This document shows positions 33,690-51,658 of a stretch of DNA of 64,000 bases, piece after piece. Source of the DNA: Lysobacter sp. Root76 (GTDB lineage Bacteria > Pseudomonadota > Gammaproteobacteria > Xanthomonadales > Xanthomonadaceae); contig NZ_LMIK01000005.1 of the NCBI RefSeq assembly GCF_001428685.1, positions 515,224 through 579,223 on the forward strand. Reading direction: 5' to 3'. The notes below the pieces were generated by a model. The model was not told the origin of the DNA and did not search any database. It saw only the letters and a program-made list of their open reading frames with translations. How positions within the stretch are numbered: the first letter of the stretch is position 1; every line of letters begins with the position of its first letter. The translations under genes were made by a program, and so were the position numbers.

Positions 33690-35495
33690 TCAGCGGAAAT
33701 GCGCTTCGATCTGTTCCAGCGACTTGCCCTTGGTCTCGGGCAGGAAGAAGGCCGCGACCAGGAAATACACCACGGTGCAGCCGGCCCAGAAGAAGAACAT
33801 GCTGGCGTAGCCGTATTGGCCGACCGTGGGCAGGAAGATCGCCGCGATCACGGTGGAGACGAACTGGTTGATCAGCAGGGCGATGCTCATGCCGTTGGAG
33901 CGGATGCGCGTGGGCATCAGCTCCGATAGCGCCAACCACACGCACACGCCGGGGCCGACCGCGAAGAAGGCGACGAACACCAGGATGCAGGTCGCCACCG
34001 CCCAGCCGTGCGCGGGCGGCGGCACCGGGCCGATGCTGGCGCGCTCGATCGTCAGCGGGGCTTGCGCCGCGGCGGCCGGGTCGGGGAAGGGGTTGAGGTG
34101 CAGACGGCGGAAGAACGCACCGATTACGCTGTCGGCCTGCACGCTGTCCTCGCGCCGGATCGTCAGTTCGGCGGTGCCGATCGCATCGCTGCGCAGCGAA
34201 CGCACGTTGCTGAAACCGCCGTAGGCGTAGGCCACCGTCAACTGTTGCGGCTGCGCCGCGGTGTTGCCGCCCAGGCGCTGCCATTGCGCCGCATCCAGAC
34301 GCAGCGACAGCGCGTCGCCGGCGATCTGCTGGTGCAGCGGTTGGCGCACGTCCTGCAGGCCGCGCTCGGCTTGCAGGAACAGCAGCGCGGCCGCGAGCAG
34401 GGCCACGGCGATGCCGCCGCTGCCGAGCATCAGCAGGAACTTGCGCCCCTTGCAGTCGACCAGTACCAGCGCGACCACGGTCATCACCGCGTTGAGCAGC
34501 TTGATCGCCACGTCCGCCCAGTTCGCGGCCGCGCCGGGCAGGCCGGCCTGGTTGAGGATGTTGACCGCGTAGGCGAGCACCGAGTTGATGCCGGTGGCCT
34601 GGGTGAAGGCGAGGATCGCGCAGGCCAGCAGGAACGGCCAGACGTAGCGGCGGCTGAGCAGGCGGTCGCGCTGCTGGGCCACGCCGGTGGTCTGCTCGCT
34701 CGCGGGCGTCTGCATCTGCTGCAGAGTGGCTTCGACCTGGGCCGCGGGCACGGTGCGTTGCAGCGCCATGCGCGCCTGCTCGATGCGGCCGCGTCGCACC
34801 AGCCAGCGCGGCGATTCGCTCAGCAGCAGCACGCCGGCGCTGAACACCATGCCCGGCAGCAGGCAGCTCCAGAAGATCGTGCGCCAGGCGTGGTCCTTGA
34901 CCGCGAACAGCACGCGCTGCTGCTCTTCGGCGGCCAGTTGCTGCACCGAAGCGGTAGCGATGTCGACCGCATGCGCGTGGTACAGCCCGATCACCGCGGC
35001 CAGCACCAGGCCGATGGTCAGCAACAGCTGGAACATCGCCGCGCCGCGGCCGCGCCGTTCCGGGCTCAGCACTTCGGCCAGGTACAGCGGCACCACCACG
35101 CCGATCAGGCCGCCGCTGATGCCTTGCAGCAGCCGGCCCAGCAGCAGCGGCAGATAGCCCGAAGCCAGCGCCATGATCGGAATGCTGAGGGTGAACAGCA
35201 CGCCGCTGAGCAGCATCGCGCCGCGGCGTCCGATCAGGTCGGCCACCGCGCCGGCGAACAGGGAGGACAGCACGCTGCCCAACAGCACTGCCGCGACGAC
35301 GAAGCCGAGTTGCTGGCTGCTCAGGTGCCAGCTCGCGGTCGCGGTGGTCTCCAGGTAGGGCAGCGCGCCGGCGATGATGCCGATGTCGATGCCGTAGAGC
35401 AGGCCGCCCATGCCGGCGATGAACAACAGGTAGCGGATGCGCCATGACGGCGTGGCGCTGGCGTGCATGGGCGTGGCGGCGGAAACGTCGTTCAT
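33690..35495 (-). CDS. MFS sugar porter with a large extra loop, probable GalNAc permease
   Basis: A 601-residue sugar-porter-family transporter, about 110 residues longer than usual. Family signatures are present: GIDIGIIAGALPYL in TM1, GRRGAMLLSG after TM2, PLYLAEVLSPERRGRGAA, TQATGINSVLAYA, and the C-terminal PETKGKSLEQIEAHF. Between TM9 and TM10 (about residues 382-492) there is a soluble, beta-rich insertion (SLRLDAAQWQRLGG, AYAYGGFSNVRSL, AELTIRRED) predicted to face the periplasm. Being last in the aga operon, it most likely imports free N-acetylgalactosamine by proton symport; the substrate is inferred from context. It follows the deacetylase gene by 90 nt. Confidence 0.88.
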   Translation of the reverse strand: MNDVSAATPMHASATPSWRIRYLLFIAGMGGLLYGIDIGIIAGALPYLETTATASWHLSSQQLGFVVAAVLLGSVLSSLFAGAVADLIGRRGAMLLSGVLFTLSIPIMALASGYLPLLLGRLLQGISGGLIGVVVPLYLAEVLSPERRGRGAAMFQLLLTIGLVLAAVIGLYHAHAVDIATASVQQLAAEEQQRVLFAVKDHAWRTIFWSCLLPGMVFSAGVLLLSESPRWLVRRGRIEQARMALQRTVPAAQVEATLQQMQTPASEQTTGVAQQRDRLLSRRYVWPFLLACAILAFTQATGINSVLAYAVNILNQAGLPGAAANWADVAIKLLNAVMTVVALVLVDCKGRKFLLMLGSGGIAVALLAAALLFLQAERGLQDVRQPLHQQIAGDALSLRLDAAQWQRLGGNTAAQPQQLTVAYAYGGFSNVRSLRSDAIGTAELTIRREDSVQADSVIGAFFRRLHLNPFPDPAAAAQAPLTIERASIGPVPPPAHGWAVATCILVFVAFFAVGPGVCVWLALSELMPTRIRSNGMSIALLINQFVSTVIAAIFLPTVGQYGYASMFFFWAGCTVVYFLVAAFFLPETKGKSLEQIEAHFR

Positions 35496-35585
35496 CGTGC
35501 CGATCCTGTCTGGGAGGGGAAGGCCGCGCGGCGCGGACGCGTCGGCGGCGGTGGCGATTGGGGAAGACGATTCGAACGGGTGAGC

Positions 35586-36698
35586 TCAGGCCAGCGCGAC
35601 CTCGTCCCCTTCGACGAAGACCCGCTGCACTTGCAGCTGCGGATCCAGCACCACCAGGTCGGCCCAGGCCTCGGCCTGCAGGCGGCCGCGGTCGTGCAAA
35701 TCGAGGTAGTCGGCCGGATAGCGCGACAGGCGATCGGAGGCGTCGGCCAGGTCCAGGCCCAGCGATACCAGGTTGCGCAGCGCCTGGTCCATGGTCAGTG
35801 CGCTGCCGGCCAGCGAGCCGGTGCCCAGGCGCACGCAGCCCAGGCATTTGTGCACGCGCTGCGAACCCAGGGCGTACTCGCCGTCGGGCATGCCGGTCGC
35901 GGCGGTCGCATCGGTCACGCAGTACAGGCGCGGGATCGCGCGCAGCGCAGTGCGAATCGCGCCCGGATGCACGTGCTGCAGGTCGGGAATCAGCTCGGCG
36001 TACTCGGCGTGGGCGAGTGCGGCGGCGGCGATGCCGGGGCGGTAGTGGTCGAGCCCGGTCATGCCGTTGAACAGATGGGTGAAGCCGGAAGCGCCGGCCT
36101 GCAGCGCCGCCACGCCGTCCTCGTAGCTGCCGGCGCTGTGGCCTAGCTGGACGCGGATCCCGAGCGCGACGAGTTGCGGAATCAGCGCCAGGTGCTGGCC
36201 GACTTCGGGTGCGAGCGTGAGCACCCGGATCGGTGCGACGGCATGCAGGCGCCGCACCTGCGCCATGGTCGCCTCGATCGCCAGCGGCGGCTGCGCGCCC
36301 AGGCGTTCGAGGCTGATGTAGGGGCCTTCCAGGTGCACGCCCAACACCCGCGCCATGTCCGGCGTGCGGATGGCGATGGCGTCGGCGAGACCGTGCAGGG
36401 CCTGGACGATGTCGTCCTCGTGCGCGGTCATGGTGGTGCCGAGCAGGGCGGTGGTGCCGTGTCGGGCGTGGGTGCGCGCCACGGTCCGGGCGACGTCGCC
36501 GCCTTGCATGAGGTCCACGCCGGCGCCGCCGTGCACATGCAGATCGATGAAGCCGGGCAGGATCAGCGGGCCGTCGCCGCCGTCCGCATCGTCGTGCGTG
36601 GCGCGGATGCGCCGCACGCGTTGGTCGAACTCGATGTTCCCTCGCACCCATCCCGTTGCGGTGAGGATGCGGCCGTGCAGTACGCGTGGCGTGGTCAA
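35586..36698 (-). CDS. nagA: N-acetylgalactosamine/glucosamine-6-phosphate deacetylase
   Basis: A 370-residue NagA-family amidohydrolase. Motifs: PGFIDLHVHGGAGVDLMQGG (first metal box), GVHLEGPYIS with the metal-binding Glu, QLGHSAGS, THLFNGMTGL and VTDATAATGM with the catalytic Asp. It removes acetate from HexNAc-6-phosphate in the cytosol. Among aga genes it should act as AgaA on GalNAc-6-P, giving galactosamine-6-P for AgaS. Its ATG overlaps the agaR stop by 4 nt. Substrate preference over GlcNAc-6-P is from context only. Confidence 0.92.
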   Translation of the reverse strand: MTTPRVLHGRILTATGWVRGNIEFDQRVRRIRATHDDADGGDGPLILPGFIDLHVHGGAGVDLMQGGDVARTVARTHARHGTTALLGTTMTAHEDDIVQALHGLADAIAIRTPDMARVLGVHLEGPYISLERLGAQPPLAIEATMAQVRRLHAVAPIRVLTLAPEVGQHLALIPQLVALGIRVQLGHSAGSYEDGVAALQAGASGFTHLFNGMTGLDHYRPGIAAAALAHAEYAELIPDLQHVHPGAIRTALRAIPRLYCVTDATAATGMPDGEYALGSQRVHKCLGCVRLGTGSLAGSALTMDQALRNLVSLGLDLADASDRLSRYPADYLDLHDRGRLQAEAWADLVVLDPQLQVQRVFVEGDEVALA

Positions 36699-37471
36699 GG
36701 TGGCGGCTCGGCGATGATCACCTCGATGCCCAGCCGCTGCAGTCCCTCGCGGTACTCGCTGCTGATGCCGTCGTCGGTGATGACGGTGTGGATCTGATCG
36801 AGGCGGGCGATGCGGTGCAGACTGACGCGTCCGAACTTGGAGGCGTCGGTCAGCACCACGACCCGGCGCGCGTGTTCGACCATGCGGTGGTTGAGACTGG
36901 CTTCGGCCTCGTGGTGGGTGGTCAGCCCGAACTGCAGGTCCAGCCCGTCCACGCCCAGGTACACGGCGTCGAAGCTGTAGGGGTTGAGGCTGGCCTCGGC
37001 GCGGCTGCCCTGCAGCGACAGCGATTGCTTGCGCAGCAAACCGCCGGTGAGCAGCAGCTCGACGCCGGGCGCGTTGGCCAGTTCCCAGGCGATGTTGAGG
37101 CCGTTGGTCATCACCGTGACGTCGCGATGCTGGCGCAGGTGGCGGGCCAGGGTCATCGTGGTCGAGCCGGAGTCGATGATGATGTTGTCGCCGGCCTTGA
37201 CCAGCCGCGCGGCATGCGCGCCGATCGACTCCTTCAGCGGCAGGTTCAGCGCGTCCTTCTCGTGGATGTCCTGTTCCTGCGGCGGCGTGCGCACCAGGGT
37301 GGCGCCGCCGTGGTTGCGCGTGGCCAGGCCCTGCGACTCGATATGGCTGAGGTCGGCACGGATCGTCACCGACGACACACCGAACTGCTCGACCAAGTCC
37401 GCGACCTGCAGGTTGCCGTGCTGGACCAGCAATTGCAGGATCTGTTGCCGGCGTTGGCGGGTGTTTCGCAT
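36695..37471 (-). CDS. agaR: DeoR-family repressor AgaR
   Basis: A 258-residue DeoR-type regulator. The N-terminal winged helix RQRRQQILQLLVQHGNLQVA, then DLVEQFGVSSVTIRADLSHI, is the DeoR signature. The C-terminal sugar-phosphate-binding domain (DeoRC) has IIDSGSTTMTLARHL and VYLGVDGLDLQFGLTTHHEA, the latter close to AgaR. It sits inside the operon it would control, between agaZ (34 nt) and the deacetylase gene (4-nt overlap). It presumably represses both divergent operons and is released by a GalNAc-pathway phosphosugar. Candidate operators with CTTTCGA arms are in the promoter region at 40996-41165. Confidence 0.9.
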   Translation of the reverse strand: MRNTRQRRQQILQLLVQHGNLQVADLVEQFGVSSVTIRADLSHIESQGLATRNHGGATLVRTPPQEQDIHEKDALNLPLKESIGAHAARLVKAGDNIIIDSGSTTMTLARHLRQHRDVTVMTNGLNIAWELANAPGVELLLTGGLLRKQSLSLQGSRAEASLNPYSFDAVYLGVDGLDLQFGLTTHHEAEASLNHRMVEHARRVVVLTDASKFGRVSLHRIARLDQIHTVITDDGISSEYREGLQRLGIEVIIAEPPP

Positions 37472-37505
37472 GACGGGCCTTGGTTGTCGGAACGGAAGCC
37501 GAAGC

Positions 37506-38840
37506 TTACCGTTCCGAAAGCACGCTGGCAGCAGAGGTTTCGTTTTCGTCGAACGCGCCAGCGCGGTTGCGGGCGCAGGCGCGGGCGTACTCGGCCAGGC
37601 GCCCGAAAATCCTGTGCCGGATCAGCGCCAGCGGCTCGGGCGCAAGGCGGCCGGCTTCGATCTCGCGCAACTGCTCGGGCATGAACTGGCTGAGCAGGAT
37701 CGCCGGCGGCGGCAGCGCCTGCAGGTTCGCGAGCAACCGCTCCACCGCGGCCTGTACTTCCGGTTCGCCCCAGTAATAGCGGCAGCGGTCGCTGAGCGCG
37801 TAGCCGCGCAGCAAGCGCAGCTGGCGTTCGTCGCCGCTGTAGTGGTTGCGCCAATGCGCGGGACGTTCGCGCATGACCCGGTCCAGCACTTCGACCAGAT
37901 CGGAGCGCTGCGCGGGCGGCAGCAGTTCGTCTTCGATCGCGGCCAGCGCGAACAGCGCCTCGCGGTAGGCGTAGGTCGCGGCCGGGCCGACCTTGAGGAT
38001 GGCGTAGTGGTCGCGCACCAGCGCGTGCAGCGAGGCCTCGGTCTGGTAGTCGGTGGAATGCGCCTCGTAGACGATGCGCGGCTGGCTCTCGACGAAGCCC
38101 GACAGTTCGGCCGCGGCGCGAGGGTCGTAGTGGTGCACGCTGCTGTGGTCGAAGTCGACGCCGGGCTGCACCACCATCGCGATCACGCGCTCCCAGGCCG
38201 GAGCCAGGTCCGGTGTTTGGAAGGCGAGGCGGTGGATCTCCAGGGTCCGGGCGGCCGCGTCCGGGCGCGTCACCGACAGGCCGCCGGCGAGCGAGGCTTC
38301 GCCGCCGGGCACCGGCACTTCGGTGCCGATCACGTACACCGGCGGCGGCAGGCCGGCGTCGGCGGCGGTGCGTTCGGCGATCCGCGCCAGCTCGGCCGAA
38401 CGCGCGGCCACGATCTCGTCCGGCAGCGGGGTGGGGTCGTCGGCGCAGGACATGCTGCAGTCGAGATGGATCTTGTGGAAACCGGCGGCGACGTAGGCGG
38501 CGATCAGCTCGCGCGCATGCGCCATCGCTTCGGCGGCCGGGCGTCGCTGCCAGGCGTTCGGACCCAGGTGATCGCCGCCGAGGATCAGGCGTTCGCTCGG
38601 GAAATCCTGCGTGCGCGCCAACTGCAGCACGTAGTCGCGGTACTGGGCCGGGTTCATGCCGGTGTAACCGCCGAACTGGTCGACCTGGTTCGAGGTCGCC
38701 TCGATCAGCAGCACGGTGTCGTAGCGGCGCGCGACCTGCATCGCCGCCAGCAGCACCTGCTCGTTGCTGCAACAGACGCTGTACAGGCCGACGTTTTCTC
38801 CACGGCGGTGGGCGGCGATCAGCGATTGCACGGCGGACAT
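37506..38840 (-). CDS. agaZ: AgaZ/KbaZ family, tagatose pathway
   Basis: A 444-residue protein of the GatZ/KbaZ/AgaZ family. The sequence GENVGLYSVCCSNEQVLLAA, the segment LILGGDHLGPNAW and FHKIHLDCSMSCADDP are diagnostic. It was long called the non-catalytic subunit of class II tagatose-1,6-bisphosphate aldolase; a Shewanella study of GalNAc use proposed AgaZ as tagatose-6-phosphate kinase. Either way it handles the product of AgaS. The ATG at 38840 is chosen over a long frame to 39029 because that frame overlaps the kinase gene. No catalytic aldolase partner (AgaY/KbaY) is present in this window. Confidence 0.9.
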   Translation of the reverse strand: MSAVQSLIAAHRRGENVGLYSVCCSNEQVLLAAMQVARRYDTVLLIEATSNQVDQFGGYTGMNPAQYRDYVLQLARTQDFPSERLILGGDHLGPNAWQRRPAAEAMAHARELIAAYVAAGFHKIHLDCSMSCADDPTPLPDEIVAARSAELARIAERTAADAGLPPPVYVIGTEVPVPGGEASLAGGLSVTRPDAAARTLEIHRLAFQTPDLAPAWERVIAMVVQPGVDFDHSSVHHYDPRAAAELSGFVESQPRIVYEAHSTDYQTEASLHALVRDHYAILKVGPAATYAYREALFALAAIEDELLPPAQRSDLVEVLDRVMRERPAHWRNHYSGDERQLRLLRGYALSDRCRYYWGEPEVQAAVERLLANLQALPPPAILLSQFMPEQLREIEAGRLAPEPLALIRHRIFGRLAEYARACARNRAGAFDENETSAASVLSER

Positions 38841-38862
38841 GTGGCCTCGGCGGTTCTGGGAA

Positions 38863-39807
38863 TCAGGAAGCGCTGCGCTGACGCGCGAGCAAGGCCGCGC
38901 CGCGCGCGCCGCCGGCATCGCCGAACGCGGGCGGCAGGATCGGCGGCACGCGCGGGCCGCGGAACAGATGCGCGGCGACCGCCGCGGGCAAATCGCGGTA
39001 CAGCAGCTCGAGTTTCGACAGGCCGCCACCGAGCACGATCACGTGCGGATCCAGCGCCAGCACCAGGCCGGCCAGGCCGTAGCCGAGCAGATCGCGGTGG
39101 ATGTCGAGCGCGCGCAGCGCGGTGATCTCGCCTTGCTGCGCTCGTACCGCGATCGCGCTGGCGTCGATGGTGTCGCCGCCGAGCTGATGGTGGATCAGGG
39201 CCAGGCCGCTGCCGGAGACGTAGCGCTCCATGCAGCCGCGCAGGCCGCAGGCGCAGTCCAGCAGCGGTAGGGAATGACGTTGCAGCAGGGCGGCCGGCGC
39301 GCTCCAGTGGCCCCATTCGCCGGCGATGCCGTTGTGGCCGGCGATCAGCCGGCCGTCGAGGCAGTAACCGCCGCCGGCGCCGGTGCCGAGGATCGCGCCG
39401 AACATGCTGGGATAGCCGGCGGCCGCGCCGCCGTGGGCTTCCGACAGGGCGAAGCATTGGCAGTCGTTGCCGAGAAACAGCGGGCGCTGCAAGCGTGCGC
39501 GCAGGTCCTGCTCGACGCGTTGGCCGGTCAGCGCCGGCACGTTGGAGCTGAGCTGGCGTCCGCTGTCGCGATCGACCACGCCCGGCACGCCCAGGCCGAC
39601 CGCCGCACCGGCGTGTCCGAGGTCGGCGTCGGCGGCGAGCACCAGGTCGGCGACCGCCTGCAGGAAGGCCTCGTAATCCTGGGTCGGGGTGGCGACGCGG
39701 CGCCGATAACGCACCTCCATCGCCTGGTCGCAGGCGACCAGTTCGATCTTGGTACCGCCGATGTCCAGGCCGTACCAGGTCTGCGCGGAGGCGTTCGGAT
39801 CAGTCAT
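38863..39807 (-). CDS. ROK-family N-acetylhexosamine kinase
   Basis: A 314-residue ROK kinase. ATP-site motif DIGGTKIELVA (residues 15-25), sugar-site GLGVPGVVD and GNDCQCFALSEA (catalytic Asp in the ND pair), GTGAGGGYCLDGRL, GEWGHWS, and the zinc-binding CACGLRGCMERYVSG that defines bacterial ROK sugar kinases. It is closest in look to NagK, which phosphorylates free GlcNAc at O6. In this operon it most likely phosphorylates imported GalNAc to GalNAc-6-P (AgaK role), since import by an MFS permease leaves the sugar unphosphorylated. It overlaps agaS by 8 nt. Confidence 0.92.
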   Translation of the reverse strand: MTDPNASAQTWYGLDIGGTKIELVACDQAMEVRYRRRVATPTQDYEAFLQAVADLVLAADADLGHAGAAVGLGVPGVVDRDSGRQLSSNVPALTGQRVEQDLRARLQRPLFLGNDCQCFALSEAHGGAAAGYPSMFGAILGTGAGGGYCLDGRLIAGHNGIAGEWGHWSAPAALLQRHSLPLLDCACGLRGCMERYVSGSGLALIHHQLGGDTIDASAIAVRAQQGEITALRALDIHRDLLGYGLAGLVLALDPHVIVLGGGLSKLELLYRDLPAAVAAHLFRGPRVPPILPPAFGDAGGARGAALLARQRSAS

Positions 39808-40957
39808 GGCGATGGATGATCACGCCTTGGACGACACGGTTGACGGTGCCGTCGGGGAATGGATTGTCGGGCGTCAGGCCCAGGCCGGCGGAACGGTGCA
39901 GGGCGTAGCGCTGGGCCATGCTCAGCCACAGCGGCGCCAGCCAGGGATCGGGCAGGGCCGGTGTATCCAGAGTGAAATCGCCGGCATCGGCCCGCTCGTC
40001 GCCCGGGCCGACCGAAAGCACGCGCGCGGCGATGCCGTCGCGGCGCAGTTCGTCCAGCAGATCCTGCTCGTAGCGGCGCGCGACCGGTTCGGCGCTGCGC
40101 AGCAGCACCACCAGCGTCTCGCTATCGAGCGTGGACTTGGGGCCGTGGCGGAAACCCAGCGGCGTGTTCGCCAGCGCGAGCACGCGGCCGGCGGTGAGTT
40201 CGAGCAGCTTGAGCGCGGCTTCGCGCGCGAGCGATTCCAAGGGGCCGCTGCCCAGATAGATCACGCGCGTGTACGGCGCCTGCGCGAGCGCGGCCACGGC
40301 TGCGTCCCAGTCCGCCAAGGCGCGGCGGCCGTGCGTGGCGAGCGTGCGCAGCTGCTGCAGCCGCTGCGGCCACGGCGCTTGATCGAATACGGCGAGCGCG
40401 GCGAGCTGCATGCAGCTCAGGCTGCTGGTCATGGCGAAGGCGCGGTCGCAACTGGCCTCGGGCATCAGCAAGGTGAGCGTGTCGGCGCGGCCCTGGCCGC
40501 GTCGTGCGAGTTCGCCTTCGCCGTTGCAGGTGATGTCGAGGAAGCGTGCGTCGGCGACGCGTTCGCGCACCAGTTCCACCGCGGCGATGCTTTCCGGGCT
40601 GGAGCCGCTGCGCCCGAACGACACCAGCAGGGTCGGTCGCTCGCGCTGCAGGTACAGGGACGGATGCGTCAGCAGGCTGGTCGTATGCAGGGCGCGCACG
40701 TCGGCCGGCCACTGCGCATTGATCTGGTCGGCGACCATCTCGGCGATGAAGCCGGAGCTGCCGGCGCCGGTGAGGATCACCCGGTGCCCGGGCTGGCGCA
40801 GCCAGTCGCCGAGAAAGCCGTCGATGCGCTCGCGCTGCCGATCGAGCGTCGCGGCCAGGTCTTCCCACAGCGCGGGCTGCTGGGCGATTTCTTCGGCGGT
40901 GTGGGCTCCGCCCAGGCGGTGCCAGGCGGGCAAGTCGGGGAGCACGGGAGCGTCCAT
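39800..40957 (-). CDS. agaS: AgaS, galactosamine-6-phosphate deaminase/isomerase
   Basis: A 385-residue protein with two SIS domains. The first has ILTGAGSSGFIAEMVADQIN and VSFGRSGSSPESIAAVELV; the second has IYLGSGPLESLAREAALKLL. LANTPLGFRHGPKSTLD is the family landmark that contains the likely catalytic residues. AgaS converts galactosamine-6-phosphate to tagatose-6-phosphate and ammonia. It is the first gene of the minus-strand operon, with AGGAA 8 nt before its ATG, and immediately downstream of the AgaR-like operators. Confidence 0.92.
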   Translation of the reverse strand: MDAPVLPDLPAWHRLGGAHTAEEIAQQPALWEDLAATLDRQRERIDGFLGDWLRQPGHRVILTGAGSSGFIAEMVADQINAQWPADVRALHTTSLLTHPSLYLQRERPTLLVSFGRSGSSPESIAAVELVRERVADARFLDITCNGEGELARRGQGRADTLTLLMPEASCDRAFAMTSSLSCMQLAALAVFDQAPWPQRLQQLRTLATHGRRALADWDAAVAALAQAPYTRVIYLGSGPLESLAREAALKLLELTAGRVLALANTPLGFRHGPKSTLDSETLVVLLRSAEPVARRYEQDLLDELRRDGIAARVLSVGPGDERADAGDFTLDTPALPDPWLAPLWLSMAQRYALHRSAGLGLTPDNPFPDGTVNRVVQGVIIHRHD

Positions 40958-40995
40958 TCACGGTTCCTGTTGGGCACATGCACGATCTGTGTTTC

Positions 40996-41232
40996 CTTTC
41001 GAAAAGTCAAATATCGAAAGCTAATAGAAAGTTATCGGTTCCCGGGCCCCGCAGACAGTCGAATTAAGCTTTCATCATGCTGCTCTGCAGCAATCGAGTG
41101 GATGAGCAGAAAATACGCACGGACCGCGCCCGTAACTGTAAGTTGTGCTCTGCACAATCTTTCGATATAAAGAAAATATCCTTCTTTTTCCTTTGCAATT
41201 TGTTGACATATTTCGACGCGCTGCCCTAGAGT
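40996..41232. promoter_or_regulatory. Divergent aga promoter region with AgaR-like operators
   Basis: CTTTCGA (40996-41002) and TCGAAAG (41014-41020) are a perfect 7-bp inverted repeat with an 11-nt spacer, just upstream of agaS. A third CTTTCGA is at 41159-41165, on the glycosidase side. TTGACA (41203-41208) and TAGAGT (41227-41232), 18 nt apart, fit a sigma-70 promoter for the GH31 operon. The region 40985-41220 is clearly AT-rich against its surroundings. DeoR-family repressors often recognise repeated T-T-T-C-G/A half sites, so AgaR is the natural ligand. Confidence 0.6.
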
Positions 41233-41278
41233 CGGCCGCAAGGGTTTCATATCCGCATACGGCGGCTTGGGGGCAAGA

Positions 41279-44200: not shown

Positions 44201-44644
44201 CAGCGGTATTTGTCCGAACTGGAGCTGCCGGCGGCGCTGGCCAACGAGGTCGCGCGCGACCGCGCGCACGGCGGCGCCGGCGAGATGCGCATGAACGGTC
44301 TGCAATTTCGCCGCGGTCTGGGCGTGGGCGCGGCCAGCCGCATCGATGTGCAGTTGCACGGCGGCTGGCGTTTGCTGCGCGCCGACCTGGGCATCGACGA
44401 CCGCTGCCGCGAGGCCGGCGGCCTGCAGTTCCAGGTCTGGGGCGACGACCGCCTGCTCTACGACAGCGGCCCGTTGCGTGCGCCTGCCGTGGTCAAACCC
44501 GAACTGGATATCCGCGGCCTGCAGCGCCTGAGCTTGCGCACTCTCGGAGCACAGGGCGCGAAACCGGCGCAGGTCTGCGGCAACTGGGCCAATGCGGTCC
44601 TGATCGGACAGGAGGGCGATACCGCCAGCATCGCCACGCCCTAA
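41279..44644 (+). CDS. GH31 glycosidase with F5/8C and NPCBM modules, probable alpha-N-acetylgalactosaminidase
   Basis: An exported enzyme of 1121 residues. Signal peptide: LTAAMCGLWLFAAPALA. After a beta domain comes a GH31 barrel (about 250-560). The candidate nucleophile is D376 in KLDVAWTGKGYQF and the acid/base is D427 in AWTGDQSGSWDY, about 50 residues apart as expected for GH31. A DUF5110-like beta domain follows, then an F5/8 type C/CBM32 module (about 800-920) and an NPCBM-like module (about 960-1110), both galactose-type binding folds. The KLDVAW form differs from the usual W-x-D-M of alpha-glucosidases and fits the GH31 alpha-GalNAcase branch; the aga operon and GH109 neighbour support this. 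The start is GTG 41279 (GGGGG upstream) or TTG 41267. Confidence 0.85.
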   Translation: MGTDARSRGRQLTAAMCGLWLFAAPALAEPLGKLRAIAPASDGAATPTWTLTADNGARIRIDLLRADLLRVQAGRNGKLTAPADKATPIVLAQPAAKVAYTFEEDADELRIRTDALVLHIQRQPLRLSMDRIAAGKTLPLWRELQPLDLAKDQSVQVLSSEAGEHYYGGGQQNGRFEFKGRELEISYSGGWEDGDRPSPAPMLLSSRGWGMLRNTWSDGNYDLRQLDQSTLLHREDRFDAYYFVGAGLPELLDRYTALTGRAGLLPRWALSYGDADCYNDGDNKKKPGTVPEGWSDGPTGTTPDVVESVARQYREHDMPGGWILPNDGYGCGYKDLPKVAQGLARYGFRTGLWTEDGVDKIAWEVGKAGSRVQKLDVAWTGKGYQFAMDANHAAYDGILNNSDSRPFLWTVMGWAGVQRYAVAWTGDQSGSWDYIRWHIPTLIGSGLSGMAYATGDVDGIFGGSAETYTRDLQWKSFTPVLMGMSGWSSAGRKHPWWYDEPYRSINRDYLKLKMRLTPYMYGLTREAERSGAPPVRGLMWDYPQDPQAYTEAHKYQFLLGRELLVAPVYRSQAASRGWRRDIHLPPGRWIDYWDGRQLQAGAQGRQLDRQVDLATLPLFVRAGAILPMYPAMLYDGEKPLDELTLDLYPQGESHYTLYEDDGGTRRYVQGEFAEQVIAMQAPEQGSGEVRVRIEAQRGQYAGQLPQRRYALRVLSRERPRAVELDGRALPALADRAALASATEGWYFDPAERRGSLHVRTAPIDIRRALDFRLDLPVAAAVPDDAFPTAPELGRALPADSLLVINRPAEEPGHALEKAFDDDPATWFRTLRNQAVRTGAHEWTIGFGERSLIDGIELAPRNDQHWKHGQVRDYEVYLADSNGEWGEPIARGQLKLQQELQRIDFAPRAGRMLRFRVLSTQNPDGDAASGSDPMVSAAQNGAARAVDALRPRDVGPIALSTFRILEHRTPERPAQQRYLSELELPAALANEVARDRAHGGAGEMRMNGLQFRRGLGVGAASRIDVQLHGGWRLLRADLGIDDRCREAGGLQFQVWGDDRLLYDSGPLRAPAVVKPELDIRGLQRLSLRTLGAQGAKPAQVCGNWANAVLIGQEGDTASIATP

Positions 44645-44771
44645 GCCAGCGTCACACCAAGCACTCGCCTTCCGACTGCGGCCATGGGCCGCGGCACCGG
44701 AGCTTTGTTGCCTCACGCAAGCCAACCCGCACGCGCAGCGCCGAGCGCTGCCGATCGAAATGGAGCCGAAG

Positions 44772-47759
44772 ATGTTGCATTCAAGCCAACGCTGTCGCCA
44801 TCGCCGCATCCCCGTCACCGTGCTGTCCGTCGCCCTGGCCGCCGCCCTGGCGGGACCGGTCTACGCGCAGACCGCCGACACCGCCGCGCCCGACGCCGAG
44901 GCCAAGGAGAAGGCCACCGAACTGGAGCGGATCGAAGTCACCGGCTCCAACATCAAACGTACCGATGTGGAAACCGCTTCGCCGGTGCAGGTCATCAGCA
45001 AGCAGGACATCGAGAACATGGGCGCCCGCACCTTGTTGCAGGTGCTCGACAACCTGCCGGCGGCACGCCCGGCGCAGGTGGATTCCAAGTCGCTGTTCAC
45101 CGGTTCCGATGGTGCCTCGCAGGCCAATCTGCGCGGCCTGGGCGCGCAAGGCACGCTGGTGCTGTTGAACGGCCGCCGCCTGTCGTACTACGGCGCGCCG
45201 GCCGGCTTCCAGACCCAGTTCGTCAACATCGACTCGATCCCGGCCGCGGCGATCGAACGCATGGAAGTGCTGACCGACGGCGCCTCGGCGGTGTACGGCA
45301 CCGACGCGGTCGCCGGCGTGATCAACGTGATCACCAAGCGCGAGTACCAGGGCGCGGAAATCAACCTGACCACCGACTTCGCGCCGCGCTTCGATTCCTA
45401 CGGCGAGCACCAGCTCAGCTTCACCGGCGGCTTCGGCGATCTGGACGAGGACCGCTACAACGTCTACGGCTCGGTCAACCTGTACCGGCGCGACCCGATT
45501 CCGCTGTCCGAGTGGTACGACAAGAAGCCCGAGCAGTACTACGTCAACAACCCGAACTACATCAACAACCTGCGCCTGGGCACCGGCAGCGCGCCGGGCG
45601 TGTTCAACCCCGGCAGCTATTTCGCGATCAATCCGGTCACCGGCCGGCGCACGCAAGAGGCCGCGCCCGGCTGCCAGAACGTCGTCGTCGAAGCGGCCGG
45701 TCCGCGCTGTATCTGGCAGACCTGGCTGAACAACGAGATCGACGGCGGCGCCCAGTCCGAACGCGCCACCGCCTACGTCAGCGCGCGCTTCCTGATCGGC
45801 GACACGACCGAAGCGTTCGCCGAGGCGACCTACACCGACATCGACCTGCGCGCCAACGGCGGCACCCCGCGCGCCTTCGGCACCACCACCGGCAACCCGA
45901 CCAGCTGGTTCTCGCGCAACACCGGCAACACCGTCAACCAGTTCTTCTACCCGTACCTGGGCCCCAACAACGTCTACAACAAGGCCAGTCCGGCGCTGCG
46001 CGCGATCAACGGCGGCGTGGTCGGGCTGCAGTACCTGCTGCAGGACGTCGGCGACAACCACTTCGGTCAACGCAATACCGATAAGAGCTACCGCGGCATG
46101 TTCGGACTGCGCGGCAGCCTCGGCGACTGGAACTGGGAAAGCGCCTTCACCACGGCCGGCTCGCATTCGGTCACCTACCAGACGGCCAACGTCAACCTGG
46201 AAGGCTTCGAACGCGCGTTCGGTCCGTTCACCGTCGACCCGGGCACGGGACGCGTGATCATCTCCGACAACCCGGCCTACAAGTTCGGCGAGATCAGCGA
46301 GGCCAACGCCAAGCTGCTGCGCGAGGCCTATCCGACCTTCGACATCGAGTCGTGGACGCGCCTGCACACCCTCGACGGCAAGATCGAAGGTCCGCTGTTC
46401 TCGCTGCCCGCGGGCGAAGTGCGCGCGGCGTTCGGCTTCAACCTCAGCCGCGAAACCTTCTACACGCCCGGTAACGCCGACGCGGCCAATGGCCTGATCA
46501 CCCAGCAGGGCGGTTCCTGGTTCGACGGCAAGCGCACCACCTACGCGCTGTTCGGCGAGGCGGTGGCGCCGATCACCGAGAAGCTGGAGCTGGAAGTCGC
46601 CGCGCGCCTGGACAAGTACCCCAACTTCAGCGCCAACCTGGCGCCCAAGATCGGCCTGAAGTACCAGGCGTTCGATCAGCTGCTGCTGCGCGGCACCTAT
46701 TCCGAAGGCTTCCGCGCGCCCAGCCTGGCCGAGTCCGGCGAGGGCGGCGTGTTCGCGCAGATCGGCGGCTACCGCGACGAGATCCGCTGCAACGAAACCA
46801 ACGCCATCGCCAGCCTGCTGCTGCAGTCCGCGCGTCCCGGCGACGTGGACCTGGGCCGCACCCTGCGCAATTCCGATTGCAGCCGCAACGTGGCGCGCCT
46901 GACCCAACCCAACCAGGACCTGAAGCCGGAGAAGGCCAAGATCGCGACGCTGGGCTTTGTGTACGAGCCCGCCGACTGGCTGTCGGTCTCGGCCGACTAC
47001 TGGTTCATCTATCGCCGCAATGAGATCGTGGCACCGGACTACAGCAAGCCGGAGGACGTTCTGGAGCTGCGGCGCTTCGGCATTACCGACGCCGACCGCG
47101 CCAACTTGGCCGCCCTGGCGGCGATGTGCGCCGATCCGGCCAGCGGCGTGACCTGCCCGGGCACGCTGCCGGGCTACAGCATCGGCAACATCTCCAGCGT
47201 CGTCGGCCAGTACAAGAACCGCGGCCGCACCCTGGTCGACGGCTTCGACATCGACGCGCGCGGCCGTTTCGACCTGGGCGAATGGGGTCGCCTGAACGTC
47301 GGCGTGGCCGCGACCATCGCCCGCCGCAACATGTACTACGTCGACGACGCCTCGGGCTGGATGTACGGCAACTCGGTCGGCTACTACAACAACCCACGCG
47401 TGCGTGCGACCTTCAACGTCGACTGGAACTACGGCGACTGGAACACCAGCTTCTACGTCAACTACGTCGGCAGGACCAAGTGGGCCTACGACCGCATCGA
47501 CAAAGAGGACAACAACGCCGAGACCTGCACCGGTAGCTATGTGTCGGTGGAGCCGAGCAAGTGCGACGGCGCGCCGGCCTGGTGGACGGCCAACCTGGGC
47601 GTGACCTGGCGGCCGACCGACAAGCTCACCGTCGGCGCGACGGTGAAGAACCTGTTCGACCGCCGTCCGTTCTACGACCCCAACGACTGGATGTCCTTCT
47701 CCGGCTACACCAACAACTTCGGCCGCATCTTCAGCATGACGGTGGGCTACAAGTTCTGA
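44772..47759 (+). CDS. TonB-dependent receptor
   Basis: A 995-residue outer-membrane receptor. The signal peptide ends VYA-QTA. A short N-terminal extension leads to the plug domain (about 60-190: VQVISKQDIENMGARTLLQV, NLRGLGAQGTLVLLNGRRLS, VEVLTDGASAVYGTDAVAGV-type motifs, here MEVLTDG), followed by a 22-strand-like barrel to the C-terminal aromatic YKF. It is of the large oligosaccharide/peptide-uptake type common in Xanthomonadaceae. In this operon it should import GalNAc or GalNAc-containing glycans freed by the GH31 and GH109 enzymes. The start at 44772 has GGAG 8 nt upstream; ATG 44760 has none. Confidence 0.93.
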   Translation: MLHSSQRCRHRRIPVTVLSVALAAALAGPVYAQTADTAAPDAEAKEKATELERIEVTGSNIKRTDVETASPVQVISKQDIENMGARTLLQVLDNLPAARPAQVDSKSLFTGSDGASQANLRGLGAQGTLVLLNGRRLSYYGAPAGFQTQFVNIDSIPAAAIERMEVLTDGASAVYGTDAVAGVINVITKREYQGAEINLTTDFAPRFDSYGEHQLSFTGGFGDLDEDRYNVYGSVNLYRRDPIPLSEWYDKKPEQYYVNNPNYINNLRLGTGSAPGVFNPGSYFAINPVTGRRTQEAAPGCQNVVVEAAGPRCIWQTWLNNEIDGGAQSERATAYVSARFLIGDTTEAFAEATYTDIDLRANGGTPRAFGTTTGNPTSWFSRNTGNTVNQFFYPYLGPNNVYNKASPALRAINGGVVGLQYLLQDVGDNHFGQRNTDKSYRGMFGLRGSLGDWNWESAFTTAGSHSVTYQTANVNLEGFERAFGPFTVDPGTGRVIISDNPAYKFGEISEANAKLLREAYPTFDIESWTRLHTLDGKIEGPLFSLPAGEVRAAFGFNLSRETFYTPGNADAANGLITQQGGSWFDGKRTTYALFGEAVAPITEKLELEVAARLDKYPNFSANLAPKIGLKYQAFDQLLLRGTYSEGFRAPSLAESGEGGVFAQIGGYRDEIRCNETNAIASLLLQSARPGDVDLGRTLRNSDCSRNVARLTQPNQDLKPEKAKIATLGFVYEPADWLSVSADYWFIYRRNEIVAPDYSKPEDVLELRRFGITDADRANLAALAAMCADPASGVTCPGTLPGYSIGNISSVVGQYKNRGRTLVDGFDIDARGRFDLGEWGRLNVGVAATIARRNMYYVDDASGWMYGNSVGYYNNPRVRATFNVDWNYGDWNTSFYVNYVGRTKWAYDRIDKEDNNAETCTGSYVSVEPSKCDGAPAWWTANLGVTWRPTDKLTVGATVKNLFDRRPFYDPNDWMSFSGYTNNFGRIFSMTVGYKF

Positions 47760-47851: not shown

Positions 47852-48961
47852 ATGCGCACCATCCGCTACGCCATGCTGCTGCTGTGCCTGATGCTTTCGT
47901 CCAACGCCTTCGCTCTGGTCGCCGGCGGCATGGTCAGCATCAAACGCCAATGGCCGGCCACCGAGCTGGGCTATCTGGACATGGACTTCCCCACCACCAT
48001 CACCGACGAACCCGGTAATGACGGCTACACCTACTGGGCGCACCAATTCTGGTTCAAGAACGGCGACGGCGGCTACATCGGCCTGCAGCAACGCGACGGC
48101 AGCAGCAAGTGGCTGAACTTCTCGATCTGGAAGGCGACCGGCTGGACCGCCGAGCCCGGCGCCCAGTGCGCCTACTTCGACCACGAAGGCAGCGGCGTGC
48201 AATGCTCGATCGACTATGCCTGGCGCGAGCGTGCCACCTACGACATCCGCATCGTCGCCGAGGCGCCCGCGCAATGGGCGGCCTACATTGTCGACACCGG
48301 CAGCGGCGCCCAGCGCAAGGTCGCGACCATCCAGGTGCCCGCGACCTGGGGCGGCCTCACCGACAGCACCAATACCTTCCTGGAAGACTATGCGCAGGGC
48401 GCCAATGAACGTGCGAGCTGCGCCGCGGTGCCGGCCAGCAGCGCGGTAATGCACGCGCCGACGGCGGAGCAGGGCAGCGTGAGTCCTGTGTCCAGCACCG
48501 CGACTACCTATGGCAATTGCGTGGCCATCGCCCGCGCGGCCTGCACCGCGGAGCAGGATTGCATCGCCGCGGCCAACGTCTACGGCACGCTCGGCAGCCC
48601 GCAGCGCCTGCTCAACGAACAAAGCGGCTACTGCCTGGACACCTTGTCGGGCGGCACGCAAGCGGGCCTGTGGGACTGCACGGCCAACGCCAATCAGCAG
48701 ATCGAGCGCGACGACGGCTTCCGCCTGCTGATGCGCTCGCGCAGCCAGTGCCTGCAGGCCGACGCCGACGGCAAAGTGCGGCTGGCCGATTGCGGCAACG
48801 GCTCGCGCCAGCGCTGGATGCCGATCCCGGGTTCCAAGGAGGTCTACAACATCGGCGCGCGCAAGTGCCTGGACCCGATGAACGGCGGCGTGCGCGGGGC
48901 CTACCTGCAGACCTACACCTGTCTGGCCAACGGCTATCAGCGCTGGAGCCTGAAGCCCTGA
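47852..48961 (+). CDS. Secreted ricin-B lectin domain protein, copy 1
   Basis: A 369-residue exported protein. Signal peptide MRTIRYAMLLLCLMLSSNAF-A. Residues about 22-190 form a beta domain like DUF3472 (DGYTYWAHQFWFKNGDGGYI, WLNFSIWKATGW, YDIRIVAEAP). A Cys-containing linker follows (about 200-250), then a ricin-type beta-trefoil (about 255-369: SGYCLDTLSGG... CLQADADGKVRLADC... RQRWMPIP... CLDPMNGG... YQRWSLKP) with its QxW-like motifs. Ricin-B folds often bind Gal/GalNAc, which suits the operon. Ribosome binding site CAGGAGAG, 5 nt before the ATG. A surface or secreted glycan-capture protein is the best guess. Confidence 0.85.
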   Translation: MRTIRYAMLLLCLMLSSNAFALVAGGMVSIKRQWPATELGYLDMDFPTTITDEPGNDGYTYWAHQFWFKNGDGGYIGLQQRDGSSKWLNFSIWKATGWTAEPGAQCAYFDHEGSGVQCSIDYAWRERATYDIRIVAEAPAQWAAYIVDTGSGAQRKVATIQVPATWGGLTDSTNTFLEDYAQGANERASCAAVPASSAVMHAPTAEQGSVSPVSSTATTYGNCVAIARAACTAEQDCIAAANVYGTLGSPQRLLNEQSGYCLDTLSGGTQAGLWDCTANANQQIERDDGFRLLMRSRSQCLQADADGKVRLADCGNGSRQRWMPIPGSKEVYNIGARKCLDPMNGGVRGAYLQTYTCLANGYQRWSLKP

Positions 48962-49098: not shown

Positions 49099-50208
49099 AT
49101 GCGCACCATCCGCTACGCCGTGCTGTTGCTGTGCCTGATGCTTTCGTCCAACGCCTTCGCTCTGGTCGCCGGCGGCATGGTCCGCATCGACCGCCACTGG
49201 CCGGCCACCGAGCAGGGCTATCTGGACATGAACTTCCCCACCACCATCACCGACGAGCCCGGCAAGGACGGCTACACCTACTGGGCGCACCAATTCTGGT
49301 TCAAGGGCGGCGACGGCGGCTACGTCGGCCTGCAGCAGCGCGACGGCCGCAGCAAGTGGCTGAACTTCTCGATCTGGAAGGCGACCGGCTGGACCGCCGA
49401 ACCCGGCACCCTGTGCCGCTACTTCGATCACGAAGGCAGCGGCGTGCAATGCTCGGTCGACTATGCCTGGCGCGAGCGCGCCACCTACGACATCCGCATC
49501 GTCGCCGAGGCGCCCGCGCAATGGGCGGCGTACATCGTCGATACCGGCGATGGCAGCCAGCGCAAGGTCGCGACCATCCAGGTGCCCGCGGCCTGGGGCG
49601 CCCTGACCAACTACAGCCTCACCTTCCTGGAAGACTATGCGCAGGGCGACCAGCAGCGTAAGAGCTGCGCCGCAGTGCCGGCCAGCAGCGCGGTAATGCA
49701 CGCGCCGACGGCGGAGCAGGGCAGCGTGGGTCCGGTGTCCAGCACCGCTGCCACCTATGGCAATTGCGCGACCATCGCCCGCGCGGCCTGCACCTCGGAG
49801 CAGGATTGCATCGCCGCGGCCAACGTCTACGGCACGCTCGGCAGCCCGCAGCGCCTGCTCAACGAACGCAGCGGCTACTGCCTGGACACCCTGTCGGGCG
49901 GCGCGCAAGCGGGCCTGTGGGATTGCACGGCCAACGTCAATCAGCAGGTCGAGCGCGACGACGGCTTCCGCCTGCTGATGCGCTCGCGCAGCCAGTGCAT
50001 GCAGGCCGACGCCGACGGCAAGGTGCGGCTGGCCGATTGCGGTAACGGCTCGCGCCAGCGCTGGATGCCGATCCCGGGTTCCAGGGAGCTCTACAACATC
50101 GGCGCGCGCAAGTGCCTGACCCCGATGAACGGCGGCGTGCGCGGGGCCTACCTGGAGACCTACACCTGTCTGGCCAACGACTATCAGCGCTGGCACCTGA
50201 AGCCCTGA
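49099..50208 (+). CDS. Secreted ricin-B lectin domain protein, copy 2
   Basis: The duplicate of copy 1, also 369 residues, with the same signal peptide, DUF3472-like domain and ricin-B trefoil. Substitutions are spread over the length and include likely surface or binding positions: K-R-Q-W to D-R-H-W near the mature N-terminus, ALTNYSLTFLE for GLTDSTNTFLE, and CLTPMNGG for CLDPMNGG in the third trefoil repeat. That last change removes an aspartate at a usual sugar-contact position, so specificity may have diverged. Same leader and ribosome binding site as copy 1. It is followed by a perfect 8-bp hairpin and then the GH109 gene. Confidence 0.85.
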   Translation: MRTIRYAVLLLCLMLSSNAFALVAGGMVRIDRHWPATEQGYLDMNFPTTITDEPGKDGYTYWAHQFWFKGGDGGYVGLQQRDGRSKWLNFSIWKATGWTAEPGTLCRYFDHEGSGVQCSVDYAWRERATYDIRIVAEAPAQWAAYIVDTGDGSQRKVATIQVPAAWGALTNYSLTFLEDYAQGDQQRKSCAAVPASSAVMHAPTAEQGSVGPVSSTAATYGNCATIARAACTSEQDCIAAANVYGTLGSPQRLLNERSGYCLDTLSGGAQAGLWDCTANVNQQVERDDGFRLLMRSRSQCMQADADGKVRLADCGNGSRQRWMPIPGSRELYNIGARKCLTPMNGGVRGAYLETYTCLANDYQRWHLKP

Positions 50209-50218
50209 CCGATTTCTT

Positions 50219-50238
50219 GCGGATCCGGTCGGATCCGC
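50219..50238 (+). terminator. Perfect hairpin between lectin copy 2 and GH109
   Basis: GCGGATCC (50219-50226) and GGATCCGC (50231-50238) pair perfectly around GGTC. No T-run follows, so it is more likely an attenuator or mRNA stabiliser than a full terminator. The equivalent position after copy 1 (48971 onward) has only the left arm and GGA of the right arm, because the duplication junction removed the rest. Confidence 0.4.
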
Positions 50239-50302
50239 ATTCATTCGAACCGCGCGTGGCAAGCTGAAGGCGGAACCGGCCGCGGATGCAAAGGAACACC
50301 TC

Positions 50303-51658
50303 ATGAACCGTAGAGATTTCATCCTGGCAGGCGCCGCCCTGGGCGCGACCAGCCTGCTGTCGGCAACGCCGGCCTGGGCCGTCGACCGGCGCATCCGCCT
50401 GGGCCTGATCGGAACCGGCATGCGCGGCCAGGTGCTGCTGCGCGAGTTGCTGCGCCGCGACGACGTCGAGGTCGTCGCGATGTGCGACATCGAGCCGATC
50501 ACGCTCAAGCGTGGGCTGGCGATGGCGAGCGAGGCCGGCAAGCCCGCGCCCAAGGCCTATGGTCAGGACGGCGACGAGCACGCTTACCGCCGCCTGCTGG
50601 AGCAGCGCGGCCTGGACGCGGTGATCATCGCCACGCCCTGGGAATGGCATGCGCCGATGGCGATCGATGCGATGCAGGCCAAGGTCGCGGTCGGCTGCGA
50701 GGTGGTCGCCGGCGTGAGCCTGCAGGACCATTGGGACGTGCTGGCGACGCAGCAGCGCACCGGCACGCCCTACATGCTGCTGGAGAACGTGTGCTACCGG
50801 CGCGATGTGATGGCGGCCCTGCAGATGGTGCGGGCCGGCCTGTTCGGCGAGCTGGTGCATCTGCAGGGCGGTTACCAGCACGATCTGCGCGCGGTGAAGT
50901 TCAACTCCGGCGATCCGGATCAGCCGTACGGCAGCGGTGTGGAGTTCGGTCCCAAGGGCTGGTCGGAAGCGCGCTGGCGCACCGAGCATTCGGTGCGTCG
51001 CAACGGCGAGCTGTATCCGAGTCACGGTGTCGGCCCCTGCGCGATGTACACCGGCGTCAATCGCGGCAACCGCTTCACCCACATCAACAGCTTCGCCACC
51101 AAGGCGCGCGGCCTGCACGAGTACACCGTGGCCAAGAGCGGCGGCACCACGCATCCCAGCACCCAGGTCAAGTTCAAGCTCGGCGACGTGGTGACCACGA
51201 CCCTGGCCTGCGAGAACGGCGAGACCATCCTGCTGCAGCACGACACCTCGCTGCCGCGGCCGTATTCGCTGGGCTTCCGCGTGCAGGGCACCCAGGGCCT
51301 GTGGATGGACGTCAACCAGTCCATCCACCTCGAAGGCCGCAGCCCGGCGCACAAGTGGGAACCGTTCCAGGCCTACCAGGATCAGTACGACCATCCGCTG
51401 TGGCGCAAGTACGCGCAGGACGCCGCCGGCGCCGGTCACGGCGGCATGGACTATTTCGTCGTCCATGCCTTCATAGAGGCGCTCAAAGCCGGAGCGCCGA
51501 TGCCGATCGACATCTACGACGCGGTGACCTGGAGCGCGATCACGCCCCTGTCCGAGCAATCCATCGCCGAAGGTTTCAAGACCCTGGAGTTCCCGGATTT
51601 CACCAAGGGCCTGTGGCGGTCGCGCAAGCCGATCTTCGCTTTCGACGCGAAGTACTGA
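50303..51658 (+). CDS. GH109 NAD-dependent alpha-N-acetylgalactosaminidase
   Basis: A 451-residue Tat-exported enzyme of the Gfo/Idh/MocA fold. Signal: MNRRDFILAGAALGATSLLS, cleaved near AWA. The Rossmann motif is IRLGLIGTGMRGQVLL (about 31-46). GH109 landmarks: LENVCYRRDVMAALQMVRAG, HGVGPCAMYTGVNRGNRF (catalytic Tyr/His region), GGMDYFVVHAFIEALKAG and DIYDAVTWSAITPLSEQSIA. These enzymes remove terminal alpha-GalNAc by NAD-assisted elimination/addition; Elizabethkingia members convert blood group A antigen. With the GH31 enzyme this operon has two unrelated alpha-GalNAc hydrolases. It is the last gene of the plus operon. Confidence 0.93.
   Translation: MNRRDFILAGAALGATSLLSATPAWAVDRRIRLGLIGTGMRGQVLLRELLRRDDVEVVAMCDIEPITLKRGLAMASEAGKPAPKAYGQDGDEHAYRRLLEQRGLDAVIIATPWEWHAPMAIDAMQAKVAVGCEVVAGVSLQDHWDVLATQQRTGTPYMLLENVCYRRDVMAALQMVRAGLFGELVHLQGGYQHDLRAVKFNSGDPDQPYGSGVEFGPKGWSEARWRTEHSVRRNGELYPSHGVGPCAMYTGVNRGNRFTHINSFATKARGLHEYTVAKSGGTTHPSTQVKFKLGDVVTTTLACENGETILLQHDTSLPRPYSLGFRVQGTQGLWMDVNQSIHLEGRSPAHKWEPFQAYQDQYDHPLWRKYAQDAAGAGHGGMDYFVVHAFIEALKAGAPMPIDIYDAVTWSAITPLSEQSIAEGFKTLEFPDFTKGLWRSRKPIFAFDAKY

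Follow-up and report, generated by a model that had tools for sequence, protein, structure and literature searches.

We describe a divergent gene cluster at positions 33690-51658 of a 64,000-nucleotide stretch of DNA from Lysobacter sp. Root76 (contig NZ_LMIK01000005.1, positions 515,224 to 579,223; the window, meaning the whole stretch that was analysed), which, judged from sequence, would be an AgaR-controlled regulon for using glycoproteins that carry O-linked N-acetylgalactosamine (GalNAc), a reading to which we give a probability of roughly 0.6. More tentatively, and at slightly less than even odds, the cluster would be an O-glycoprotein locus in which a tandem, diverging pair of ricin-tethered DUF3472 glutamic O-glycopeptidases is combined with two alpha-GalNAcases and a stand-alone AgaZ 4-epimerase, for which the label 'non-catalytic aldolase subunit' would be wrong here. 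The main biochemical interpretation of the first-pass annotation holds up, although it is an ordinary one; the unusual elements are the predicted pair of ricin-tethered O-glycopeptidases and the genomic case for a stand-alone AgaZ.

In the proposed scheme, secreted lectin-tethered DUF3472 O-glycopeptidases would cut clustered O-glycan stretches, as homology to the mucinase HC7 suggests, and the GH31 enzyme, together with a GH109 enzyme probably exported by twin-arginine translocation (Tat), would release alpha-GalNAc from the glycopeptides, going by their close solved relatives. The TonB receptor would then move fragments or GalNAc over the outer membrane and AgaP would move GalNAc over the inner one. 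AgaK is predicted to phosphorylate the sugar, AgaA to deacetylate it and AgaS to deaminate it to tagatose-6-phosphate, which AgaZ may epimerise at C4 to fructose-6-phosphate, allowing entry into central metabolism without a tagatose-bisphosphate aldolase. If this is true, 'lectin' genes of environmental bacteria would be mucin-type O-glycopeptidases, pointing to animal-type O-glycoproteins as food, and could supply mucin-cutting tools with a binding module other than that of HC7.

The AgaR-type control proposed in the first-pass annotation is upheld, because AgaR passes the cut-off of its NCBIfam equivalog model (335 versus 260 bits). In the 2012 work of Leyn et al., CTTTC is reportedly the AgaR consensus element and is found as multiple boxes in control regions. 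The 321-base gap between agaS and the GH31 gene contains, counting both strands, five CTTTC boxes versus 0.98 expected, a number reached by two of 1000 dinucleotide shuffles, and all the 321-base stretches of the window with at least four boxes overlap this gap. For comparison with relatives, we took the best 80 of 217 GH31 relatives; eight of their 80 loci lacked a divergent agaS/GH31 gap of 50-900 bases and were dropped from the box count. All 72 remaining gaps contain at least three boxes (mean 6.8, versus 1.5 in shuffled sequences), although these relatives are not mutually independent. Within the locus, we found no CTTTC box ahead of the TonB receptor or GH109 genes, between agaP and agaA, after agaP or after GH109; because these other gaps examined contain none, we assume a single shared promoter region. 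DUF3472 copy a has two boxes ahead of it, a number reached by 27 of 1000 shuffles, and copy b has one (385 of 1000).

Upstream of DUF3472 genes lying outside a core aga locus, the motif was enriched in only one of nine regions (L120, 5 of 1000 shuffles) and not in the other eight (L119, L121, L122, L091, L101, L105, L095 and L096), two of which are beside an AgaR paralogue. There are two boxes in the gap between DUF3472 and agaR of L121 (58 of 1000 shuffles) and likewise two in that of L122 (54 of 1000). Separately, a locus from another genus (L124:3716-15544), with the receptor gene, two DUF3472 genes and GH109 but, within 20 kb, no GH31 match, has nine boxes in the gap between agaS and the receptor gene (0 of 1000 shuffles).

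The two proteins first described as ricin-B lectins do contain a ricin-B domain, but each also has an N-terminal DUF3472 domain that had been overlooked (77.3 and 72.6 bits, cut-off 24.8), preceded by what appears by eye to be a signal peptide; all of the 25 homologues scanned match DUF3472 at E 0.01 or better. HC7 is said to have been reported as a di-glutamate mucinase by Narimatsu et al. in 2024. The portion of PMC13003899 that we draw on likewise presents it as a di-glutamate DUF3472 mucinase (PDB 8pmu, 8pn3 and 8pn5), and the PDB entry name of its chains is 'DUF3472 domain-containing protein'. With an AlphaFold model built from four sequences only, the Foldseek matches that reached an E value of 0.001 or lower were eight HC7 chains and 4qhw, nine in all, and VIA-align gave a Z score of 14.7 for HC7 (root-mean-square deviation 2.8, 153 residues aligned), 13.3 for 4qhw and 9.4 for the following row. 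Weaker structural rows, comprising galectins, eqolisins and neprosin, were attributed to nothing more than a common fold. A profile built from 25 DUF3472 domains, which is independent of the model, also finds 4qhw (E 8.5e-11) and HC7 (E 2e-10).

The catalytic Glu200 of HC7 aligns with Glu178 in the profile match to the wild-type chain 8pmu; two HC7 entries carry a Glu200Ala mutant, and the matches to mutant chains end before this position. The same offset between Glu200 and Glu178 follows from where the structural alignment starts and ends, a weak check, consistent with the sequence alignment, because the model is poor at Glu178. Glu178 (codon 48383-48385 in copy a) occupies a single column in all 25 homologues aligned. 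Glu112 (codon 48185-48187) aligns with Glu131 of HC7, a possible partner residue in that enzyme, and is present in 20 of the 25 homologues and, on re-alignment, in 25 of 31. Copy b has both glutamates, and so, without exception, do the 22 homologues whose identity is 40% or higher. The 25-sequence alignments left out 12 of 37 DUF3472 frames, six being repeats from overlapping loci and six distinct (L085, L091, L097, L102, L104 and L109); the latter are included in the set of 31. Given the resemblance of the DUF3472 domain to the mucinase HC7 and the retention of an equivalent of its catalytic Glu200, the two 'lectins' are more likely endo-acting, lectin-tethered O-glycopeptidases.

Full-length DUF3472 homologues were found in 11 genomes. 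In six of them (the source genome, G229, G015, G062, G217 and G072) the gene lies between those for the TonB receptor and GH109, and in two (G283 and G157) it is beside an AgaR paralogue that is 76% identical to the AgaR of the window. In the 20 kb that were examined of G072, from another genus, the receptor gene, two DUF3472 genes and GH109 are present, and GH31 gave no match at the cut-off applied. A DUF3472-ricin gene adjoins the AgaR paralogue at L121:9400-11613 and L122:8203-10433; as the agaZ gene of G157 (L122) is on another contig, a second AgaR circuit is likely there. The tandem copies a and b of the window share 93% DNA identity and differ by 42 non-synonymous and 18 synonymous codons. 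Their ratio of non-synonymous to synonymous rates (dN/dS) is 0.72, versus 0.16-0.28 in nine other pairs involving orthologues, which suggests relaxed or diversifying change after the duplication.

The claim of two unrelated alpha-GalNAc hydrolases held up at the level of homology. The predicted GH31 enzyme scores 380 bits against 6m76 and nearly the same against 7f7r and 7f7q, all GH31 alpha-GalNAcase chains; the remaining GH31 chains do not exceed 177 bits, which leaves a preference of more than 200 bits. This placement, like the tentative assignment to subfamily GH31_18, is by similarity to solved chains. Numbering the frame from the start at 41267, the nucleophile Asp that is substituted in 7f7q and 7f7r aligns to D380, and the Asp of the WTGD motif, which we take to be the acid/base residue, is D431. 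The motifs KLDVAW and WTGDQ are present in all 80 GH31 relatives, and an N-terminal signal peptide is apparent by eye. That the enzyme is instead an alpha-glucosidase, the locus being GalNAc-specific in appearance only, is highly improbable: NCBIfam alpha-xylosidase and alpha-glucosidase models do match the protein, all far under their cut-offs, but the bit scores favour the alpha-GalNAcase chains and the gene is linked to agaS and agaR in 72 of 75 long loci.

For the predicted GH109 enzyme, the match to 2ixa reaches 488 bits, that to PF21252 (GH109_C) 271 bits and that to PF01408 (NAD-binding Rossmann) 36.6 bits. Its N-terminus has a twin-arginine sequence that misses the cut-off of the Pfam TAT_signal model (20.0 bits, cut-off 22.7). 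Of 66 orthologues, 55 have a loose twin-arginine pattern, and several of those without it are frames whose N-termini were clipped in the analysis; the enzyme is probably Tat-exported.

The 'full cytosolic aga pathway' of the first-pass annotation is there as far as the GalNAc pathway genes go, but AgaS (best PDB match 3c3j, 285.5 bits) and the deacetylase score under their NCBIfam cut-offs and the class II aldolase expected as partner of AgaZ was not found, so the label depends partly on context. In addition, no NCBIfam kinase model matches AgaK over its cut-off, and agaA has a 38% identical paralogue elsewhere in the genome. AgaZ is over the cut-off of TIGR02810 and under those of the KbaZ-only and GatZ-only models, sharing 54% identity with KbaZ and 49% with GatZ of E. 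coli K-12. This GatZ/KbaZ family is usually labelled as the non-catalytic subunit of class II tagatose-bisphosphate aldolase. However, the class II aldolase domain (PF01116) was not found in the genome, in a search whose control matched 11 of 14 genomes, and KbaY/GatY matches were absent from all 81 loci. AgaZ is encoded in 43 of 198 family genomes and a class II aldolase scoring above cut-off in three, none of which is among the 43; two of the 43 show fragment matches to class II aldolase under the cut-off. In the parts of PMC11907403 used here, E. coli GatZ and KbaZ convert fructose-6-phosphate to tagatose-6-phosphate, and a GatZ active site, itself a model, is proposed to consist of C20, E44, D87, H88, E171, H257 and K279. 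The AgaZ of the window keeps all seven residues, as do all of its 76 relatives. Because no class II aldolase was found, the E. coli proteins have this activity and the residues are kept, a route by 4-epimerisation is likely, and AgaZ is probably a tagatose-6-phosphate 4-epimerase with the route ending in fructose-6-phosphate. The genomes that encode AgaZ and lack a class II aldolase form a clean set in which the function of GatZ/KbaZ proteins can be tested directly.

AgaP belongs to the SP family, scoring 268.4 bits against TIGR00879 (cut-off 237.8); membership of the Shewanella-type GGP family was considered and rejected on this score. Between transmembrane segments TM9 and TM10 it has a conserved insert of ~115 residues (about 378-492; window 34020-34364, minus strand), periplasmic by predicted topology, ungapped in 59 relatives, of which 32 were used in alignment A1, and absent from GlcP, the closest solved porter. 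The model has a predicted local distance difference test score (pLDDT) of 81, with about 80-92 for the insert. The insert has no Pfam match, and a Foldseek search with the entire model, not with the insert alone, matched sugar porters.

To place the locus among its relatives, we counted genes in the 75 loci longer than 20 kb, the five of 20 kb or less being dropped. The GH31 gene is accompanied by agaR, agaZ, agaK and agaS in 72 of the 75, the TonB receptor gene is found in 68, agaA in 66, GH109 in 65 and agaP in 58, and since the arrangement recurs in this way it is not due to chance. The core locus is thus a widespread variant of the known proteobacterial Aga pathway, found in Stenotrophomonas, Lysobacter, Pseudoxanthomonas, Massilia, Duganella, Janthinobacterium and other genera, and it is not special to a soil predator. 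The division of the 75 loci into Xanthomonadaceae and Burkholderiales was made by hand, on the basis of record titles and the order of the loci, and the nearest GH31 relative among the matches listed is from Lysobacter sp. cf310 (88% identity). In L003 and L008, the flanking frames in place of agaA and agaP have no Pfam match. Separately, a record titled Bacillus subtilis (L034) contains a whole Xanthomonadaceae-type aga locus and is probably a mislabelled or contaminated assembly. We found no description of the locus in open-licence literature on Lysobacter N-acetylgalactosaminidase, Stenotrophomonas AgaR/TonB or DUF3472 mucinases.

Several findings weigh against the reading of the cluster as a regulon for O-GalNAc glycoproteins. 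The CTTTC boxes are presumably AgaR sites, an assignment made from the consensus reported by Leyn et al. DUF3472 homologues, distant ones counted, occur in only 15 of 297 family genomes and DUF3472 genes in one of the 75 long GH31 loci (L002, at least 45% identity), so they do not belong to the core set; a 44% homologue in L036 lacks the ricin part. For three of the 11 genomes with full-length homologues (G205, G252 and G116), no aga gene was seen in the stretches that were examined, which for G116 amount to 3.3 kb only. The DUF3472 model is weak, with a mean pLDDT of 52 and ten-residue blocks of 58-83 only at residues 61-170, and the stretch containing Glu178 stays below 50; moreover, 4qhw, which is uncharacterised, is slightly ahead of HC7 as the best profile match. 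Re-alignment of the 31 distinct homologues places Glu178 in 24, and the remaining seven, of ~25% identity, have a Glu one residue later. Our confidence in this reading is slightly lowered because Glu178 is in a stretch of low pLDDT and because, in the most distant homologues, its column changes with the way they are aligned. These data also bear on the earlier view of the two proteins as non-catalytic lectins merely capturing GalNAc glycans. The ricin-B domain suits such a role, galectins, at lower Z, share its widespread lectin-like jelly-roll fold, and re-alignment with the most distant homologues leaves neither glutamate column invariant; yet both glutamates persist throughout the homologues of at least 40% identity, and the mucinase HC7 is the best structural and second-best sequence match. 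We thus regard capture alone as unlikely, while giving it some weight.

The choice of substrate is also affected. Galactosaminogalactan, put forward at first as an attractive target, is not favoured, since a GH114 endo-galactosaminidase was not found in the genome; the control for this search matched two of 14 genomes, and GH135, GH166 and GH191 were not searched. Because predicted O-glycopeptidases are in the operon and no GH114 was found, O-GalNAc glycoproteins appear to be the likeliest food. On the opposite side, M60 mucinases also gave no genome match, with a control matching one of 14 genomes; GH101 gave none either, but its control matched no genome, so absence is not shown. A natural target consisting of an alpha-1,4-GalNAc polymer, either fungal galactosaminogalactan or bacterial Pel, would agree with two hydrolases that are alpha-GalNAc-directed by homology and with the prey of Lysobacter, which includes fungi. 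It would also agree with the characterised GH31_18 enzyme, for which the text of PMC13096917 available to us gives cleavage of p-nitrophenyl-alpha-GalNAc and of none of the native O-glycan substrates tried, a result that counts against our reading. Nevertheless, in the sections of PMC11992087 cited here, the substrates are Tn, Forssman and blood-group A structures for BT4243-GH109 and desialylated submaxillary mucin for BT3169-GH31; together with the DUF3472 mucinase homology and the lack of a GH114 match, this makes the polymer an improbable target.

A last point on that side is that the genome has phosphofructokinase (PFK) and a match to class I fructose-bisphosphate aldolase, so the aldolase route keeps some probability. 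AgaZ would then be a helper subunit or a kinase, the resident PFK phosphorylating tagatose-6-phosphate and the resident class I aldolase cleaving the product; a kinase role is indeed proposed for AgaZ in an excerpt of PMC12118421. We consider this unlikely, given that no class II partner was found in the genome, nor above cut-off in the 43 genomes with AgaZ, and given the 4-epimerase activity of GatZ and KbaZ in E. coli. The sole class I aldolase match (L127; G000:C1:1056240-1057241) has one TAA inside the matched span.

The locus is inside a genome of 4.36 Mb, and the gene list and coordinates initially given proved correct, every named gene being a long open frame within the interval with the expected domains (Table 1). 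On the minus strand, agaA and agaR overlap by 4 bases and agaK and agaS by 8 bases, and gaps of 34, 22 and 90 bases separate agaR from agaZ, agaZ from agaK and agaP from agaA, respectively, spacing as in an operon. The intergenic gaps of the plus strand are of 92-137 bases, and the region between the two arms is AT-richer.

Table 1. Features of the predicted GalNAc locus; positions are those of the window and scores are in bits.
Feature	Position	Strand	Evidence
agaP, SP-family major facilitator superfamily permease, predicted GalNAc importer	33690..35495	-	PF00083 294 bits
agaA, NagA-like GalNAc-6-phosphate deacetylase	35586..36698	-	TIGR00221 223.3 bits, cut-off 225.65
agaR, DeoR-family repressor	36695..37471	-	NF040755 335 bits, cut-off 260
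agaZ, GatZ/KbaZ family	37506..38840	-	TIGR02810 596.6, cut-off 568.8
agaK, ROK-family GalNAc kinase (predicted)	38863..39807	-	PF00480 229 bits
agaS, galactosamine-6-phosphate deaminase/isomerase	39800..40957	-	TIGR02815 404 bits, cut-off 529
Shared control region, five CTTTC/GAAAG boxes	40958..41278		boxes at 40996, 41016, 41027, 41069, 41159
GH31 alpha-GalNAcase (predicted), F5/8 type C and NPCBM modules	41279..44644	+	6m76 match, domains
TonB-dependent outer-membrane receptor	44760..47759	+	Plug and beta-barrel Pfam matches
DUF3472 + ricin-B copy a, predicted O-glycopeptidase	47852..48961	+	Pfam domains, HC7 homology
DUF3472 + ricin-B copy b, tandem duplicate of copy a	49099..50208	+	Pfam domains
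GH109 NAD-dependent alpha-GalNAcase (predicted)	50303..51658	+	2ixa match, PF21252

Downstream (3') of GH109, window 51663-55870 contains, by eye, aconitase-like (AcnD) and PrpF-like genes with no obvious role in GalNAc use. On the other flank, a single frame (30978-32816, minus strand) encodes a WecA/MraY-type glycosyltransferase (PF00953) in fusion with a UDP-GlcNAc 2-epimerase-like domain (PF02350), and adjoins a gene that by eye is Wzc-like, for exopolysaccharide.

The proteobacterial Aga pathway is said to be treated in more depth by Leyn et al. in 2012, with Shewanella agaP, agaAII, agaK, agaS, omp-Aga and agaO, and with AgaR control through CTTTC boxes reportedly like that of the locus described here. 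In the passages of PMC2996990 used, a permease of the GGP family, a kinase, a deacetylase, a deaminase and a TonB receptor of Shewanella are assigned to one GalNAc pathway, and the same five functions are predicted for our cluster. Unlike in Shewanella, AgaP is here an SP-family porter with a periplasmic insert, and the locus adds two alpha-GalNAcases, an AgaZ for which the genome search yielded no class II aldolase and the DUF3472 proteins. The aga/gat clusters of E. coli K-12 share homologues of agaR, agaS and kbaZ, but have kbaY/gatY aldolases and import through a phosphotransferase system. As far as the cited part of PMC11992087 goes, the polysaccharide utilization locus (PUL) BT4240-50 of Bacteroides thetaiotaomicron, together with BT3169-GH31, resembles our locus in combining GH109 and GH31 alpha-GalNAcases, an O-glycopeptidase, a GalNAc kinase and outer-membrane import; it differs in that its peptidase is M60-like instead of DUF3472, import is of the SusC/D type, the kinase is thought to act at O1 and the GH31 gene is outside the PUL. 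Finally, the two predicted O-glycopeptidases share with HC7 the DUF3472 domain and the equivalent of Glu200, but have a ricin-B lectin where HC7 has a CBM5 module, and are encoded by a Gram-negative host, inside a GalNAc operon.

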